The notes beneath the pieces were generated by a model. It did not search any database. It saw only the letters and a program-made list of their open reading frames with translations, and had not been told where the DNA came from. Position numbers and translations under genes: made by a program. A stretch of DNA of 64,000 nucleotides, taken from NCBI RefSeq assembly GCF_003385955.1, contig NZ_QRDW01000003.1:62001-126000 (forward strand). Reading direction: 5' to 3'. Source of the stretch: Aestuariispira insulae (lineage in GTDB: Bacteria; Pseudomonadota; Alphaproteobacteria; UBA8366; Aestuariispiraceae). Below, in pieces: positions 14,265 to 22,874 of this stretch; positions within the stretch are counted from its first letter, which is position 1, and each line of letters opens with the position of its first letter.

Positions 14265-15557
14265 TTATACGTCGATCAGCAGGCGGGCCGGGTCTTCCAG
14301 GCAATCCTTCAGTCGCACCAGGAAGGTAACCGCCTCACGGCCGTCAATGATCCGGTGGTCATAGGAATGGGCCAGATACATCATGTTGCCCACCTTGATC
14401 TCACCCTTGTCATCGCAGATCGGGCGTTTCTGGATCTTATGCATGCCCAGAATGCCGGATTGCGGCGGGTTGATGATCGGGGTGGAGAGCAGGGAACCGA
14501 ACACACCGCCATTGGTGATGGTAAAGGTGCCGCCCATCATTTCCGCCATGGTCAGCTTGCCGGCGCGGGCCCGCATGCCAAAGTCAGCGATGGCCGCTTC
14601 GATCTCGGCGAAGGAAAGCTTGTCCGCATCACGCAGAACCGGCACTACCAGACCCTGCGGCGTGCCGACAGCAATGCCGATGTCGTAATAGTTTTTATAG
14701 ATGATCTCATCGCCGTAGATCTCCGCATTGACCGCAGGCAATTCCTTGAGCGCGATCACCGCCGCTTTGACGAAGAAGCTCATGAAGCCCAGCTTCACAT
14801 CATGCTTTTTCTGGAACTGTTCCTTATATTCGGACCGCAGCGCCATCAGGGCCGTCATATCCACCTCGTTGAAGGTGGTCAGCATGGCCGCCGTGTTCTG
14901 CGCATCCTTCAAACGGGTTGCGATCACCTTGCGCAGCTTGGACATCTTGGTCCGCTCTTCACCTCTAGGGTCCATCGGACGTTCGCCCAGCGTGTCATAG
15001 CTGGGGGCCGCCGGTTTTGCCGGACCGGCCGGGGCCGCGGCTTTGGCCGGTGCCTTGGCCGCATTGGCGATGAAATTCTGCACATCTTCGCGGGTCAGGT
15101 TGCCCTTCGGCCCCGTTGCCGGGATTTTCGACGCATCCAGGTTGAACTCTGCCACCAGCTTGGCAACGGACGGCGAGAGATCCAAGTTGGTCGCCGGTGC
15201 CGCAGGCGCAGCGGCCGGTGCCGATGCTGCCGGGGCAGGGGCGGCTTTTTCGGGTGCCGGGGCGGCTTCCTTCTCGGGCGTGGCCTCTTCCTTCGCCGGT
15301 GCCGCCGCTTCACCGGCAGCCCCTTCGGTCACGCGGCAGAGCAGGCTGCCCACTTCCACATCAACCCCTTCATCCGCAATAATCTCAGAGAGGGCACCCG
15401 CCACGGGCGAGGGCACCTCGATGGTGACTTTGTCGGTTTCCAGCTCTACCAGCGGCTCGTCCAGGGCGACGGACTCGCCAACTGATTTAAACCATTTGAT
15501 GATGCTTGCTTCTGAGACAGATTCCCCAAGCGCGGGGACGATTACATCCGTTGTCAT
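14265..15557 (-). CDS. sucB: 2-oxoglutarate dehydrogenase E2 (dihydrolipoyl succinyltransferase)
   Basis: E2 carries the succinyl group on lipoate and passes it to CoA in the TCA cycle. The 430-residue protein has one lipoyl domain (about 1-76) with the lipoylated Lys in ETDKVTIE, an Ala/Pro/Lys/Glu-rich linker (about 80-115), the E1/E3-binding domain ([22 protein letters not shown], about 127-165, given here in part), another Ala/Pro linker and the catalytic domain (about 200-430) ending in [13 protein letters not shown] with the active His and Asp. It follows sucA by 89 bp and is followed by a strong terminator. E3 (lpd) must be elsewhere. Confidence 0.97.
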
Positions 15558-15646: not shown

Positions 15647-18600
15647 TTACTTCTTGCGGGCTGCGGTTTTCTTGGCCGCCGCTTTTTTAGCGGTCGCCTT
15701 CTTGGCCGCAGTTTTCTTCGCCGGGGATTTCTTGGCCGGTTTTTTGGCGCCATCCACACTCAACGCATCCCGGACCAACGCCTGCTGTTCCAGGATATGC
15801 TTCTTCGCACTGCCGGTTGCCGGCGAAGCCGAGGCGGGCCGGCCCGCATAAACCGGACGGCTGCAAACCTTATTGCCGGATTCCCCGATCACTTTTTCCA
15901 GACGGCGGTCGACAAAGAACCAGGCACCGTTGTTTTCCGGCTCTTCCTGGCACCAGACCACATCCGCATTCGGGAACCGCTTCAATTCCTGCTTCAACGG
16001 GTAATCCGGGAAGGGATAAAGCTGTTCCAGACGCAGGATATAGACATCGTCAATGCCCATGCGCTCGCGCTCTTCATACAGGTCGAAATAGACCTTGCCG
16101 GAGCAGAGCACCACGCGCTTGATGTCCTTGTCCGCCTTCAGGCCGCCTTCATGCTGTTTCAAGTCCCAGAGAACACGGTGGAAGGTGGAGCCTTCCACAA
16201 AATCCTCAATCGGGCTGACACAGCGCTTGTGACGCAGCAGGGATTTCGGCGACATCTGGATCAGGGGCTTACGGAAATTCCGTCGCACCTGACGGCGCAG
16301 GGCATGGAAATAGTTGGCCGGCGAGGTGATATTGCAAACCTGCCAGTTATCTTCCGCCGAGAGCTGCAGATAGCGTTCCAGACGTGCGGAGGAATGTTCC
16401 GGACCCTGGCCTTCATACCCATGCGGCAATAGCATCACCAGGCCGCACATGCGCAGCCATTTGCTCTCACCGGACGCAATAAACTGGTCAATGATCACCT
16501 GTGCGCCGTTGGCAAAATCGCCAAACTGGGCTTCCCACAGCACCAGGGCCTGCGGTTCGGCACTGGCATAGCCATATTCAAAACCCAGCAGACCAAATTC
16601 CGACAGCGGACTGTCAATCACCTCGTAAGGGGCCTGACCCAGCCGGATATTGTTCAACGGCACATAATTCTCTTCCGTCTTCTGGTCCACCAGGACCGAA
16701 TGGCGGTGCGAGAAGGTGCCGCGCTGGCTGTCCTCACCGGAAAGCCGGATCGATGTGGATTCACAAAGAAGCGTACCGAAGGCAAGTGCCTCCGCTGTGC
16801 CCCAGTCGATCCCTTCACCGGTTTCCAGCGCTTTTCTCTTGGCGTCCAGCTGTTTCAGGATTTTGGAGTTCACATTGAAGTTTTGCGGTGCGCGGGAAAT
16901 GGCATCACCAACCTCACGCAGCAGGTCAATATCAACACCGGTTTCGCCACGCCGGGCCGTACCGCTGGCCTGGCCGAGACCGGACCATTTGCCTTCCAGC
17001 CAGTCGGCCTTGTTGGGTTTGAACGACCGCCCGGCTTCAAACTCCTCATCCAGTTTGGCGGTGAAATCCTGGACCAGCTGATCGCCGGTGCCCGGCGGAA
17101 TGACGCCGTTTTCTTCCAACCGCTTTGCGTATACTTCCCGTGCGCGCGGATGTTCGCCGATGCGTTCATACATCAGCGGCTGAGTGAATTTCGGCTCATC
17201 CCCTTCGTTATGACCATGGCGACGATAGCACCACATATCGATCACAACATCCTTCTTGAATTTCTGACGATATTCCATGGCCATGCGCGCCACATGCACA
17301 CAAGCCTCCGGATCGTCGCCATTTACATGGAAGACCGGCGCATCAATGGTTTTCGCCATATCGGAACAATAGGGCGAGGACCGGGAGTCGCTGGGCGAGG
17401 TGGTAAAGCCGATCTGGTTATTGATCGCGATATGGATCGTGCCACCGGTTTTGTAGCCATCGAGCTGTGAAAGCAGGAAGGTTTCCGCAACGATACCCTG
17501 GCCGATGAAGGCGGCATCCCCATGCAACAACAGACCCATCACCTTTTCACGTTCCTGGTCACCACGCTGGCGCTGCTTAGCGCGCACCTTGCCAAGAACC
17601 ACCGTGTTCACCGCCTCCAGATGGGACGGGTTCGCGGTCAGGCTGAGATGGATATTCTTGCCGTCGAATTCACGGTCGGCGGAGGTGCCCAGATGGTATT
17701 TCACATCGCCCGAGCCCTGAATATCGTCAAAGGTATTGGTCAGGCCTTCGAATTCCGCAAAAATCTGGCGGTAGGGCTTGGTCATGGTATTGGCCAAAAC
17801 ATTCAACCGGCCCCTGTGGGCCATGCCCAGAACCACCTCTTCCAGGCCCAGCTGCACGCCACGCTTGAAGATCTGTTCCATCATCGGAACCAGGCTCTCG
17901 CCGCCATCCAGGCCAAATCGCTTGGTGCCCCGGTATTTCTTGTCGAGATAGGTCTCGAACACATCCGCCTGAGTCAGCCGTTCCAGGATGGTTTTCCGGC
18001 CAAGGTCGGTGAAATCCTTGCGGTTCAGCGTGCTTTCAATCCGCTCCTGGATCCAGGCTTTTTCGTCCGGGTCCTGGATATGGAGGAATTCCACGCCAAT
18101 ATTGCCGCAATAGGTCTGTTCACAGATGCGGACAATCTCACGCAGGGAAGCGCTTTCAAGCCCCAGCACATAATTGATGAAGATCGGGCGGTCCCAATCG
18201 GCATCACTGAAACCGTAAGTCGCCGGATCCAACTCCGGGTGGTCTTCACGCTGAACCAGGCCCAGCGGATCCAGCTTTGCATGCAGATGCCCGCGGATCC
18301 GGTAAGCCCGGATCACCATCAACGCCCGGATGGAATCCAGGGTCGCCTGGCGGATCTGGTCCGCGCTGGCACCGGGGCCCGCCGCCTGGCGCAGCTGCGC
18401 CATCAGGGCCTCATAAGGATTGTCATATTGTTTGGCATCCGCCAGCGCATCCGACATGGAGATGCTGCTGCCATCACCGCCCACCACCTTTGAATGGCCG
18501 GAGGCCCAGCTGGCGCCGGGATCTTTCACTGCGATGGTTTGGATGTCTTCGCCCAGGGCTTCGAAGAATGCCGCCCAGCTCTGGTCGACGGATTTCGGAT

Positions 18601-18682
18601 CGTCCCGGTAACGGGCATAAAGTTCTTCAACGTAAGTCTCGTTCGCTTGGAACAGCGGTGAAGTATCACCGATATACGTCAT
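15647..18682 (-). CDS. sucA: 2-oxoglutarate dehydrogenase E1, with Lys/Ala-rich tail
   Basis: E1 is the thiamine-diphosphate decarboxylase that commits 2-oxoglutarate to succinyl transfer. From ATG 18682 (AGGAGACGATCC upstream) it has 1011 residues. The N-terminal E2-binding segment (YVEELYARYRDDP), TPP-binding HGDAAFIGQG, NNQIGFTTSP and the C-terminal transketolase-type part (LPHGYEGQGPEHSSAR) are all present. The usual end of the enzyme (LEQQALVRDALS) is followed by about 34 residues made almost only of Lys, Ala, Pro, Thr and Ser (KKPAKKSPAKKTAAKK and similar), like a histone H1 tail. I know of no such tail as a standard part of this enzyme. Confidence 0.96.
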   Translation of the reverse strand: MTYIGDTSPLFQANETYVEELYARYRDDPKSVDQSWAAFFEALGEDIQTIAVKDPGASWASGHSKVVGGDGSSISMSDALADAKQYDNPYEALMAQLRQAAGPGASADQIRQATLDSIRALMVIRAYRIRGHLHAKLDPLGLVQREDHPELDPATYGFSDADWDRPIFINYVLGLESASLREIVRICEQTYCGNIGVEFLHIQDPDEKAWIQERIESTLNRKDFTDLGRKTILERLTQADVFETYLDKKYRGTKRFGLDGGESLVPMMEQIFKRGVQLGLEEVVLGMAHRGRLNVLANTMTKPYRQIFAEFEGLTNTFDDIQGSGDVKYHLGTSADREFDGKNIHLSLTANPSHLEAVNTVVLGKVRAKQRQRGDQEREKVMGLLLHGDAAFIGQGIVAETFLLSQLDGYKTGGTIHIAINNQIGFTTSPSDSRSSPYCSDMAKTIDAPVFHVNGDDPEACVHVARMAMEYRQKFKKDVVIDMWCYRRHGHNEGDEPKFTQPLMYERIGEHPRAREVYAKRLEENGVIPPGTGDQLVQDFTAKLDEEFEAGRSFKPNKADWLEGKWSGLGQASGTARRGETGVDIDLLREVGDAISRAPQNFNVNSKILKQLDAKRKALETGEGIDWGTAEALAFGTLLCESTSIRLSGEDSQRGTFSHRHSVLVDQKTEENYVPLNNIRLGQAPYEVIDSPLSEFGLLGFEYGYASAEPQALVLWEAQFGDFANGAQVIIDQFIASGESKWLRMCGLVMLLPHGYEGQGPEHSSARLERYLQLSAEDNWQVCNITSPANYFHALRRQVRRNFRKPLIQMSPKSLLRHKRCVSPIEDFVEGSTFHRVLWDLKQHEGGLKADKDIKRVVLCSGKVYFDLYEERERMGIDDVYILRLEQLYPFPDYPLKQELKRFPNADVVWCQEEPENNGAWFFVDRRLEKVIGESGNKVCSRPVYAGRPASASPATGSAKKHILEQQALVRDALSVDGAKKPAKKSPAKKTAAKKATAKKAAAKKTAARKK

Positions 18683-18798: not shown

Positions 18799-19674
18799 TC
18801 AGCCCTTCATCACTTTCAGCATCGTAGAGCCAAGAGCCGATGGACTGTCAGCCACCTCGATACCGGCAGAGCGCATAGCATCCTGTTTGGATTCCGCCGT
18901 GCCCTGTCCGCCAGAGATGATCGCGCCTGCATGGCCCATCCGTTTGCCCGGAGGGGCGGTCACACCCGCGATGAAACCAACCATCGGTTTCTTAATCTTG
19001 GACTGTTTGATGAACTCGGCCGCTTCCTCTTCCGCGGTGCCGCCGATTTCGCCGATCATGATGATGCCTTCGGTCTCGTCATCGTCCAGGAACATTTCCA
19101 GGCAGTCGATGAAGTTGGTGCCGTTGACCGGATCACCGCCAATACCAATACAGGTGGTCTGGCCCAGGCCAACCGCCGTGGTCTGACCGACCGCCTCATA
19201 GGTCAGCGTGCCGGAGCGGGACACAACACCGATCTTGCCGGGTTTATGGATATGGCCCGGCATGATGCCGATCTTGCACTGTTCCGGCGTGATCACGCCG
19301 GGACAGTTCGGGCCGACCAGGCGGGTCTTGGAGCCCTCAAGGGCACGCTTGACCTTGACCATGTCCATGACCGGAATACCTTCGGTGATGCAGACCGCCA
19401 GTTCCATTTCAGCTTCAATCGCTTCCAGGATGGCATCAGCCGCGAACGGCGGCGGAACATAGATGACGCTGGCATTGGCACCGGTACGGTCCTTGGCTTC
19501 TGCAACGGTATCATAGACCGGCAGATCAAGATGAGTGCCGCCGCCCTTGCCGGGGGTCACACCACCAACCATTTTGGTGCCATAAGCAATGGCCTGCTCG
19601 GAATGGAAGGTGCCCTGCGCGCCGGTGAAGCCCTGGCAGATCACCTTGGTGTCGCGATTAATGAGAACAGCCAT
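18799..19674 (-). CDS. sucD: Succinyl-CoA synthetase alpha subunit
   Basis: SucD binds CoA and carries the phosphohistidine in the step succinyl-CoA to succinate with ATP or GTP formation. The 291-residue protein has the CoA-binding Rossmann start ([15 protein letters not shown]), [10 protein letters not shown], and the active-site His in [13 protein letters not shown]. The length is standard. Its ATG overlaps the sucC stop by one base (TGATG) with GGAGG just upstream, so the two subunits are translationally coupled in a 1:1 ratio. Confidence 0.98.
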
Positions 19675-20870
19675 CAGCTTGCCTCCTTCACAGCGGCAAC
19701 CACTTTTTCGGCTGCATCTTCCAGATTGTCGGCGGAAATGATCGGCAGGCCGCTTTCGGCCATAATTTCCTTGCCGCGCTCCACGTTGGTGCCTTCCAGG
19801 CGCACAACGAGGGGTACATGAAGTGATACTTCGCGCGCCGCCGCAACCACGCCCTCGGCAATCACATCACAACGCATGATACCGCCAAAGATATTGACCA
19901 GGATGCCTTCGACATTGGCGTCACTCAGGATGATCTTGAATGCTTTGGTCACACGTTCGGTGGTCGCACCACCGCCCACATCCAGGAAGTTGGCGGGTTC
20001 GCCCCCCTTTAGCTTGATGATATCCATGGTCGCCATGGCCAGACCTGCGCCATTGACCATGCAGCCGATGGAACCGTCGAGCTTGATATAGTTCAGCTCA
20101 TGTTTGGCAGCTTCCAACTCAGCCGGATCCTCTTCATCCTCGTCCCGCATGTCGGAAACGTCGGAATGACGGAACAGCGCGTTGTCGTCAAAATTCATCT
20201 TGGCATCCAGCGCGATCACTTCGCCGGCACCGGTCACGACCAGCGGGTTGACCTCAACCATGCTGGCATCCATCTCGACAAACGCCTTATACATTGCGGT
20301 CAGGAATTTGGTGGCGGATTTAACCTGGCCGCCTTCAAGACCCAAACCAAAGGCGATCTTGCGGCAGTGGAACGGCGCAATGCCGGTTGCCGGGTCAATT
20401 GCGACCTTGATGATTTTCTCAGGGGTCGCTTCGGCGACTTCCTCAATCTCCATCCCGCCTTCGGTGGAAGCCATGATGGTGACCTGACTGGTCGCACGGT
20501 CGATGAGTAGGCTCAGATAGAGTTCGCGCGCGATGTCACAGCCTTCTTCAATGTAGAGCCGCTTGACTTCCTTGCCATCGGGGCCGGTCTGCTTGGTGAC
20601 CAGAACCTGGCCCAGCATGGCCTTGGCATCGGTGCGGACATCATCGATGGATTTGGCCAGCCGAACGCCGCCCTTTTCCGGATCCCCGCCCTTGAAGCGA
20701 CCGGCGCCGCGGCCACCGGCATGAATTTGTGATTTGACGACCCAGATCGGACCGCCCAACTCGTTGGCCGCCTGTACCGCTTCATCAACGGTATAAGCCA
20801 CCTTGCCGTTCGGCACGGCGACACCGAACTTCCGCAGAAGTTCCTTCGCCTGATACTCGTGGATATTCAT
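19674..20870 (-). CDS. sucC: Succinyl-CoA synthetase beta subunit
   Basis: SucC provides the nucleotide-binding ATP-grasp half of succinyl-CoA synthetase. The 398-residue protein begins with the invariant [17 protein letters not shown], has ATP-grasp elements ([30 protein letters not shown]) and the C-terminal CoA-ligase domain ([15 protein letters not shown]). It is the first gene of the sucCDAB run. The 228 bp upstream is its probable promoter region; the gene is not contiguous with mdh because two unrelated genes lie between. Confidence 0.98.
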
Positions 20871-21098: not shown

Positions 21099-22874
21099 TT
21101 AGCTGAGCTCACCAGTTGCCTCCCAGCAGTGTTTTTGCCAGGCATCCCTATAGGCGGCCTCCATCGAGTGGGCGAATGCCGGCCCATCACAAAGGGGGGA
21201 AGCCAATAATCTGGGCCGCGTGCCCGCACGCATCTGGGCCAACCCGACCGGATCCGCGGCAAGCGCTGAGGCTTTTTCAACAAGCTCCTGTTTCGTATCC
21301 GAAATTAAATTGGAATATCCTAACCGCGTCAACAGGCTGGCACTGACCCTTGCGGCATGCCGGTCACCCGCCAAGGCCAAAACCGGCAGGCCCATATAAA
21401 GCGCTTCACAGGTTGTCGTGGTGCCGTTATAGGGAAAAGTATCAAGGGCGATATCCGCCTGGTTATAAAGGTTGAGATGATCCCAGGCTCCGGGCAAACG
21501 CCCTTTGAGATCCAGCCTCTCCGGCGCGATCCCCTCCGTCGCGAACCATTTCAAATAGCGCGCCCGGGTTCCGGGGTCATCCAGGGAACGGGCCTTGATA
21601 ATCAATTTCGATCCCGGAACTTTATGCAGGATCTCGGACCAGAGACCAACCACTTGCCGGGTCACCTTGGCCAGATTATTGAAAGACGCAAAGGTGCAAT
21701 AGCCATTCTCAAGCATCGGCAGCGGTGCCACATCAGGCGCGCCATCAGGCGGCGTGAAGCATAAAAACCCGTTTTCCAGCCGTATAAGGCGCTCCGAGTG
21801 AAAAGCCTCCGCGCCCGGCGGGTCGGTCACCGCATCGACGATCCGGTAGTCAATCTGCGGCAAACCGGTGCTGTTGGGATAGCCCAACCATGTCATTTGC
21901 AACGGCGCCGGCTTCCTGGCCATTACCGTTAATCGGTTGTTGCCCGTATGGCCGGCCAGATCCACCAGAATGTCGATCTTCTCCTTGCGGATCAGATCCA
22001 CCAATGCCTGGTCATCCAATTGATCAATCCTGTGCCAACCATCAGCCAGGCCTTTAACAAGGTCGGTTTTTTCATCTTCGCGGCCCAGGTTTGACAAACA
22101 GGTGACCCGGACCTTCTGCCGGTCATGAAACCGGATCAGCGCATGAAAGAACCAGATCACCGGGTGATTACGGAAATCCGGTGACAGATAGGCAACATGC
22201 AGACGCCGGTCCGGGTCGGCGTCAAAATCCGGCGCAGCAGGGGTTGGAAAGGCACGGCCCCAGGCTTTATGCGCGTCGGCGATTTCCTGAACCGTGCAAT
22301 CAGCCCGGTAATTCATATTCATCAAACGATTGCTCTGGGCCATCTGCAGATCCGGTGCCTTGGCAATCACGTCATCATAAAGCCTGGCTGCCTCTTCATG
22401 GCGACCCTGGGCAGTCAGCACAGACGCCAGGTTGGATTGAACACCGGTTAAATCAGGTGAAGCCCGCAAAACGGCTTTATACTGATCGGCCGCTTCCTCC
22501 AGCAGGCCTTGATCCTTCAATCTGTTTCCAAGGGTAATCCGCGCAGCTTCGTGATCCGGATCGAGAAGCAGAGTGCGCCGGATCGCATTTTCACCGGCCT
22601 CATGATCGCCCATTCCCAGCAACAAAGCCCCCAATTGGAAACAGTAACCGGCATGATCCGGATAAGCGGCAACCAGACGGTTCATATATTGTAAGGACAG
22701 GTCATGACGGCCCACCGCATAGGCCAGTTCCGCAAGTTTATGCAGGGCCGCCTCATGGGAAGGGTCCTTGGCCAGCACGGCATTCAACCGATTGAGTGCA
22801 ACCGCGCCGTCATTGCGCGCGATTGCTGCCTCTGCTGCCGCCATCAAGGCCGATATTTCCGTTTCGTCCGACAT
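21099..22874 (-). CDS. TPR / GT41 (SPINDLY-like) glycosyltransferase
   Basis: GT41 enzymes transfer GlcNAc or another sugar to Ser/Thr or, in some bacteria, Asn. The 591-residue protein has about five TPRs (residues 1-190) and a C-terminal GT41 catalytic region (about 205-580) with HPVIWFFHALIRFHDR, LVDLAGHTGNNRL, TWLGYPNSTGLPQIDYRI, FASFNNLAKVT and DTFPYNGTTTTCEALYMGLPV. No signal or membrane segment is seen, so it acts in the cytoplasm. The acceptor is unknown; flagellin, adhesins or S-layer proteins are the usual guesses, but none is nearby. It lies alone between the suc genes and a PAS protein. Confidence 0.88.
   Translation of the reverse strand: MSDETEISALMAAAEAAIARNDGAVALNRLNAVLAKDPSHEAALHKLAELAYAVGRHDLSLQYMNRLVAAYPDHAGYCFQLGALLLGMGDHEAGENAIRRTLLLDPDHEAARITLGNRLKDQGLLEEAADQYKAVLRASPDLTGVQSNLASVLTAQGRHEEAARLYDDVIAKAPDLQMAQSNRLMNMNYRADCTVQEIADAHKAWGRAFPTPAAPDFDADPDRRLHVAYLSPDFRNHPVIWFFHALIRFHDRQKVRVTCLSNLGREDEKTDLVKGLADGWHRIDQLDDQALVDLIRKEKIDILVDLAGHTGNNRLTVMARKPAPLQMTWLGYPNSTGLPQIDYRIVDAVTDPPGAEAFHSERLIRLENGFLCFTPPDGAPDVAPLPMLENGYCTFASFNNLAKVTRQVVGLWSEILHKVPGSKLIIKARSLDDPGTRARYLKWFATEGIAPERLDLKGRLPGAWDHLNLYNQADIALDTFPYNGTTTTCEALYMGLPVLALAGDRHAARVSASLLTRLGYSNLISDTKQELVEKASALAADPVGLAQMRAGTRPRLLASPLCDGPAFAHSMEAAYRDAWQKHCWEATGELS

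Follow-up and report, generated by a model that had tools for sequence, protein, structure and literature searches.

A lysine- and alanine-rich C-terminal tail on 2-oxoglutarate dehydrogenase E1 (SucA) of Aestuariispira insulae, a possible electrostatic tether

The E1 component of 2-oxoglutarate dehydrogenase (OGDH), SucA, of Aestuariispira insulae carried a lysine/alanine-rich C-terminal tail. The tail extends an E1 that is complete in all other respects, and it is inherited within its group. It was one case of a tail kind found on several unrelated proteins, and it was not specific to SucA. We propose that it may serve as a polycation that tethers the complex electrostatically to a polyanion, with nucleic acid as the most likely one, a reading to which we give about an even chance. 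The window was the whole stretch of DNA that was analysed, 64,000 nucleotides of contig NZ_QRDW01000003.1. The following features of the sucA gene were identified.

15647..18682, minus strand: sucA, 2-oxoglutarate dehydrogenase E1, 1011 aa (NF006914 profile match and reading frame)
15650..15760, minus strand: C-terminal tail of 37 aa rich in Lys and Ala, patterned in KKxAA pentads, net charge +14
15761..16216, minus strand: OxoGdeHyase_C (PF16870; Pfam), residues 825-976 of the 1013-aa translation
18548..18664, minus strand: 2-oxogl_dehyd_N (PF16078; Pfam), retained N-terminal segment, residues 9-47
15699..15739, no strand: residual 15-bp tandem repeat in the tail, 2.7 copies, 80% match (DNA repeat search)

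The identity of SucA was clear from the profiles NF006914 (1351.6 bits, cut-off 764) and TIGR00239 (1136.6 bits, cut-off 770). The protein contained the Pfam domains E1_dh, Transket_pyr, OxoGdeHyase_C and 2-oxogl_dehyd_N, the last of which we take to be E2-binding. The gene order was that of an OGDH E1, with sucB directly downstream and sucCD upstream. The likely start was the ATG at 18682, and the listed open reading frame opened upstream at a GTG (18721). Counted from the ATG, the 1011 residues consisted of a 974-residue core and the 37-residue tail. The minus-strand frame ended with ...EQQALVRDAL, then the tail SVDGAKKPAKKSPAKKTAAKKATAKKAAAKKTAARKK, then TAA. The stop codon occupied 15647-15649, and the 37 tail codons occupied 15650-15760. 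OxoGdeHyase_C, the last Pfam domain, stopped at residue 976 of the 1013-aa translation, and the tail opened at residue 977. The preliminary description had reported a tail of about 34 residues here; the tail is real, its coordinates were exact, and its length was 37 residues.

The tail was composed of K14, A12, T3, P2, S2, R1, V1, G1 and D1, and the aspartate was its single acidic residue. At the lysine frequency of the SucA core (49/974), the probability of at least 14 lysines in 37 residues was about 1e-9. The lysine codons were mixed (7 AAA and 7 AAG), and the weak 15-bp repeat was the sole repeat left in the tail DNA. No second domain reached its cut-off in the tail when Pfam and NCBIfam were scanned, and all above-cut-off matches of SucA in these collections were metabolic-enzyme families, with no nucleic-acid-binding family among them. 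The quality of the AlphaFold model (mean pLDDT 49.3, pTM 0.31, from 19 sequences) was too low to bear on the disorder or position of the tail. OGDH E1 enzymes of solved structure (e.g. 2jgd) matched the protein as far as residue 977 or so of its 1011. None of the 15 matched chain sequences aligned over the tail, and their best stretches ended at residues 967-978.

The distribution of the tail was examined among relatives. In the family, the sample comprised 13 readable SucA ends (our own and G001-G012) from 14 genomes. A basic tail was present in 12 of the 13, with lengths of 24-131 aa and net charges of +7 to +46. The named members of the family were Hwanghaeella grinnelliae (NCBI family Aestuariispiraceae) and Curvivirga aplysinae (G005), and the SucA of the latter lacked the tail and ended in TLS. 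Across the order, a basic tail was present on 28 of 37 readable ends, and beyond the family it was usually shorter. From the remaining families, 24 ends were readable in 29 genomes; 16 had a charge of at least +4, two were at +2 or +3, and six had no tail. Their tails were mostly short and Arg/Pro-rich. Six of the 43 order genomes gave no readable end (G013, G034 and G040 partial; G038, G039 and G041 without a match). Since Curvivirga and six of the 24 ends from the other families had no tail, it is not essential.

Outside the order, none of the 12 SucA ends read from 16 genomes of the class reached +4 (G043, G044 and G050 gave no match, and G048 was left out). Among the further loci L038-L111, 4 of 73 ends (74 minus L047) reached this charge. 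These 73 loci were not drawn at random but were the nearest ones, taken from the best 80 of 585 relatives, and some of them may fall inside the order. Two of the four, L057 and L061, had ends of the PFxRxTK type, and the other two, from Denitrobaculum tricleocarpae (L082) and Pelagibius (L091), formed a separate branch of the SucA tree. A second SucA group (L057, L061, L064, L083) shared this other recurring ending, PFxRxTK, with ends of 22-28 residues. In a FastTree phylogeny of 104 SucA cores, a minimum of six tail changes was needed, where a tail was scored as a charge of at least +4, a label that also took in L057 and L061. The tree was built with FastTree only; L032-L035 and L037 were omitted as duplicates of whole-genome entries, as was L047, which had no stop in view. 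The tails of the order all fell within one 32-row group, which also held untailed members and the untailed long branch L053.

These results bore on several points of the preliminary description. A different reading frame, which it had considered as a possible error, was ruled out together with an assembly error because the same frame ran into a basic tail in the separate assemblies of relatives. Its view that the tail is not standard for OGDH E1 was true outside the order of the window as far as sampled, and the comparison of SucA C-termini that it had outlined found the tail in 28/37 ends of the order and rarely elsewhere. It had also held that a tail carried by most relatives and annotated as a domain would not be new. 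The tailed majority existed within the order, and a domain annotation was absent from Pfam and NCBIfam.

The lysine-rich segments of 11 family tails comprised 477 residues, with K185, A177, R8, D2 and E1. In a simulated unselected decay of a 477-residue KKAAA array, the mean number of acidic residues was 15-43 and never fell below 7, whereas 3 were observed. The simulation used 0.1-0.8 substitutions per site, 200 runs per setting and a ts/tv of 2, and it assumed that duplication did not homogenise the array. Because each segment was defined to begin at its first Lys-rich motif, 20 acidic residues upstream were left out; all 12 family ends together held 23 acidic residues among 667, and 12 of the 20 upstream ones were in L009 and L011. 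These two species of one genus had a longer stretch with six acidic residues before the basic segment. The lysine codons in the tails of ten relatives were mixed (61 AAA, 124 AAG). Because acidic residues numbered 3/477 against the 15-43 expected under decay, despite the mixed lysine codons, the sequences suggest selection for charge with length left free. Tandem duplication alone could also keep an array lysine-rich without selection. In the 131-aa tail of Hwanghaeella grinnelliae, a unit of 75 bp was duplicated in tandem (2.7 copies with a match of 91%). This duplication and the span of 24-131 aa supported, for the clade, the repeat expansion that had been suspected at the outset.

A fusion origin had also been suspected. 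It was not supported, since a second domain was absent and, in five proteins of the genome, the tails were not DNA copies of one another. Exact arrays in our own genome were found in trigger factor, NAD(P) transhydrogenase alpha (PntA), topoisomerase I (TopA), ribosomal protein L21 and SucA. Recent copying of one tail from another gene was rejected because five tails of the genome shared no more codons than codon-shuffled controls did (10/10 pairs, P 0.32-0.87).

Arrays were searched as exact codon matches to KKxAAKK, with the reversed pattern as a control. The pattern AARAARNNNGCNGCNAARAAR missed weaker tails, such as the SucA tails of G001 and G006, and the counts are lower bounds. Our own genome had at least 15 matches against 2 in the control. 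The 14 family genomes had at least 206 against 5, and the 29 other order genomes at least 78 against 4 (Mann-Whitney P 2e-7, shared ancestry ignored). At least one match was found in 196 of 289 genomes of the class sample, and some other lineages reached 20-41, so that this family is not alone in its array habit. The control was as high as the count in a few class genomes (G103, 2 matches and 6 control). The class lineages G051, G154, G184, G235, G282 and G327 had 21-41 exact matches per genome, and the SucA of G051 had no tail.

The carriers were surveyed wherever one of eight family genomes (G000-G007) had an exact match. Their identities were given by sequence motif, except that Mdh of G006 and, in G003, TopA and trigger factor were assigned by eye. 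L21 carried an array in 8/8, TopA in 7, trigger factor in 7, PntA in 6, TatB in 4, a UbiK/BMFP-type protein in 3 and Mdh in 3. SucA matched the strict pattern in 4/8 (G000, G002, G003, G004). Another 17 pattern-bearing open reading frames lay outside the main classes, some with N-terminal arrays, and among them a CPA2-like transporter occurred in two genomes. In our own genome, RNase E (L171, C1:457500-462000) had a KKxAA array with mismatches. This Lys/Ala/Arg array was internal to the C-terminal part rather than at the terminus; after it came a stretch of Ala, Pro and Glu and then a short end that was basic. Two HC2/H1-like proteins were also observed. L205 (G006 C6:25900-28700) had a long Lys/Ala N-terminal arm joined to a helix-turn-helix domain (PF07382 and HTH_3), and L197 (G003 C2:1003400-1006400) consisted almost entirely of Lys/Ala repeats (PF07382).

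The neighbours of sucA in the operon served as controls.

14265..15557, minus strand: sucB (E2), no tail, with a mildly acidic linker between its domains, net -4 (NF004309, 591.8 bits against 449)
18799..19674, minus strand: sucD, no tail, operon control (NF004230, 480.8 against 336)
19674..20870, minus strand: sucC, no tail, operon control (NF001913, 595.1 against 370)

SucB, SucC and SucD had a tail in 0/20 each, 0/60 together, in 20 order genomes each with shared ancestry ignored (G012 replaced G033 in the SucB set). With the same caveat, SucA reached +4 in 15/20 genomes of the SucC/SucD set. Because SucB, SucC and SucD were never tailed, basic extensions are not typical of the gene ends of this operon as a whole. 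Upstream of sucC, a gene at 21099-22874 (minus strand) encoded a TPR protein whose family 41 glycosyl transferase domain (PF13844, 156.6 bits, cut-off 25) is of the O-GlcNAc-transferase kind; several relatives have mdh near sucC instead.

Other enzymes of central metabolism carried such extensions. Mdh had a lysine-rich end in 10/15 read in the order and 3/6 in the family (by eye, shared ancestry ignored). It was found in 15 of 20 stretches, and that of G004, G008, G009, G010, G011 and our own genome lay outside the count. Upstream in the same cluster, Lys/Ala-rich Mdh tails of about 40-80 residues occurred in L248 (Hwanghaeella, G003), L247 (G002) and L241 (G006). Pyruvate dehydrogenase E1-alpha (PdhA) had a Lys/Arg-rich N-terminal extension in 32/32 loci read by eye, namely L287 of our own genome (C1:46562-47506) and 31 further order loci, from 42 genomes with a match, all within the order. 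PdhA is a sister enzyme, and its extension mirrors that of SucA at the opposite end of the protein.

Lysine-rich tails of bacterial proteins are known, and the SucA tail was of the same C-terminal, low-complexity, Lys/Ala-rich repeat kind as those of TopA, HupB and AlgP. Like the tails of actinobacterial TopA, HupB and Ku, it consists of degenerate H1-like repeats of variable length, and TopA of our own genome bears a tail of the actinobacterial lysine-repeat kind. However, the actinobacterial tails are on DNA-binding proteins and raise DNA retention, whereas the tail here is on SucA, an enzyme of the TCA cycle for which we know of no DNA role. The long Lys/Ala-rich repeat tails of AlgP and PhaF of Pseudomonas are similar, but they are built of KPAA tetrads rather than KKxAA pentads and make up a large share of the protein, whereas the SucA tail is an add-on to a large enzyme. 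Histone H1-like comparison, as in the preliminary description, was justified for the composition, since the weak local matches were all to Lys-rich models: HC2 (PF07382), H1-like NF038053, the Rv3852 family and a valyl-tRNA-ligase model. Membership was not supported by any of the scores, which were far below the cut-offs (PF07382, 19.9 against 40 bits; NF038052, 14.9 against 135; NF038053, 15.1 for the whole SucA and 19.6 for the last 70 aa against 80). As a whole, the interpretation in that description was partly supported.

The functions described for such tails concern binding to polyanions. Streptomyces TopA without its lysine repeats left DNA more readily and lost processivity, and lysine repeats were also reported for Caulobacter TopA (PMC7398561). 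The PAKK/KAAK tail of HupB stabilised its hold on DNA, and binding without it was unstable (PMC5676037). Peptides of the AlgP KPAA repeat bound DNA; the AlgP tail set the spacing of polyphosphate granules, its removal disturbed their positioning, and the repeat number of AlgP/PhaF differed between Pseudomonas isolates (PMC9239181). In a survey of prokaryotic low-complexity regions, Lys-rich regions were linked to nucleic-acid binding, and 34/45 bacterial L21 regions were Lys-rich (PMC6821194). For E1 itself, SucA of Caulobacter crescentus (CCNA_00342) co-purified with tagged RNase E, and the contact was RNase-insensitive and ascribed to protein-protein contact (PMC5472812). In a review it was assigned in silico to the client proteins (PMC9312465). 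This is E1 of the same enzyme in an alphaproteobacterium, met in an RNA-decay assembly, and the likeness concerns the enzyme itself, tailed or not (PMC5472812, PMC9312465). Since Caulobacter SucA co-purified with RNase E, an alphaproteobacterial E1 can come together with RNA-decay bodies, and these bodies are a concrete candidate target of the tail.

The proposed tether was built on the charge, which was kept while length and codons drifted. The tail would be an inherited, probably unstructured polycation that gives the OGDH complex a weak affinity, irrespective of sequence, for some polyanion of the cell. Since this complex contains E1 in many copies, many tails might act together. The likeliest target would be RNA of the ribosome, mRNA or the degradosome, or nucleoid DNA, and possibly polyphosphate or an anionic membrane. 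The tail would be dispensable for E1 catalysis. What we infer is its disorder, its binding, the target and a benefit, if any. The tether was supported by the presence of such arrays, in our own genome, on TopA, L21, RNase E and trigger factor, whose work is on DNA, RNA or the ribosome. Against it, no profile marked SucA as DNA-binding, the Caulobacter contact with RNase E was RNase-insensitive, and the tail was absent in Curvivirga and in parts of the order and mostly short and Arg/Pro-rich outside the family. In an extended version, the extensions of SucA, Mdh, PntA (C-terminus) and PdhA (N-terminus) would be client tags on one polyanionic scaffold. Pyruvate, 2-oxoglutarate and malate dehydrogenases and the transhydrogenase would then be gathered in an electrostatic metabolon on RNase E/RNA bodies, the nucleoid edge or polyphosphate. 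We consider this improbable, and a generic habit of binding polyanions is the simpler view because the same tail kind was on L21, TopA and trigger factor.

The tail may also be functionless. Lineages rich in arrays would extend their C-termini by tandem duplication, and a basic tail would be tolerated on an abundant soluble enzyme. The unconstrained length of the SucA tail, the 75-bp duplication in Hwanghaeella, the lack of visible harm in untailed Curvivirga and the arrays on many unrelated family proteins (at least 206 matches in 14 genomes against 5) were consistent with such non-adaptive growth. However, the acidic residues were far fewer than under decay, and the mixed lysine codons meant that the arrays were not freshly copied. 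In addition, SucB, SucC and SucD never gained a tail, and the basic tails of the order were in one group of the SucA tree. We regard growth of this kind as rather unlikely.

The basic E1 tail might instead dock within the complex, on the acidic flexible linker or the lipoyl domains of E2 (SucB), and help to hold the complex together. All 21 SucB linkers compared in the order were net negative (-1 to -8), and the most negative ones (G007, -8; G002 and G015, -6) belonged to tailed species. However, untailed species also had acidic linkers (G014, -5; G005 and G024, -3), and no co-evolution of linker and tail was found, in that linker net charge and the charge of the SucA tail were uncorrelated (Spearman rho -0.08, P 0.72, n=21). 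The linker acidic fraction gave a similar result (rho 0.20, P 0.38, n=21), as did 84 sets with a noisier linker definition (rho 0.12, P 0.29). Moreover, the presumed E2-binding N-terminal segment of E1 was retained, and PntA, Tig and L21 bore the same tail kind with no E2 partner. Contact with E2 appeared highly improbable. Slightly less doubtful, though still quite improbable, was that the tail targets the inner membrane or polyphosphate granules rather than nucleic acid and keeps NADH-producing enzymes near them. TatB, the UbiK/BMFP type, the CPA2-like transporter and PntA are membrane-linked, and the enzymes with extensions included SucA, Mdh, PntA and, N-terminally, PdhA. However, the most constant carriers (L21 8/8, TopA 7/8, trigger factor 7/8) were nucleic-acid or ribosome proteins.

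The Lys-rich H1-like tail kind is known, and its presence on TCA-cycle dehydrogenases may be the new part, on weak evidence. Such tails on these dehydrogenases were not found in the open-access literature searched by text, where the papers cited discussed bacterial Lys-rich H1-like tails for DNA-binding, ribosomal and granule proteins (PMC7398561, PMC5676037, PMC9239181, PMC6821194). The natural absences, in Curvivirga and in part of the other families, provide controls. Tails whose charge is kept on TCA-cycle dehydrogenases, and not on the other enzymes of the operon, raise the question of a tethered central metabolism: whether, in some bacteria, central metabolic enzymes may be held at the nucleoid, ribosomes, RNA-decay bodies or polyphosphate.
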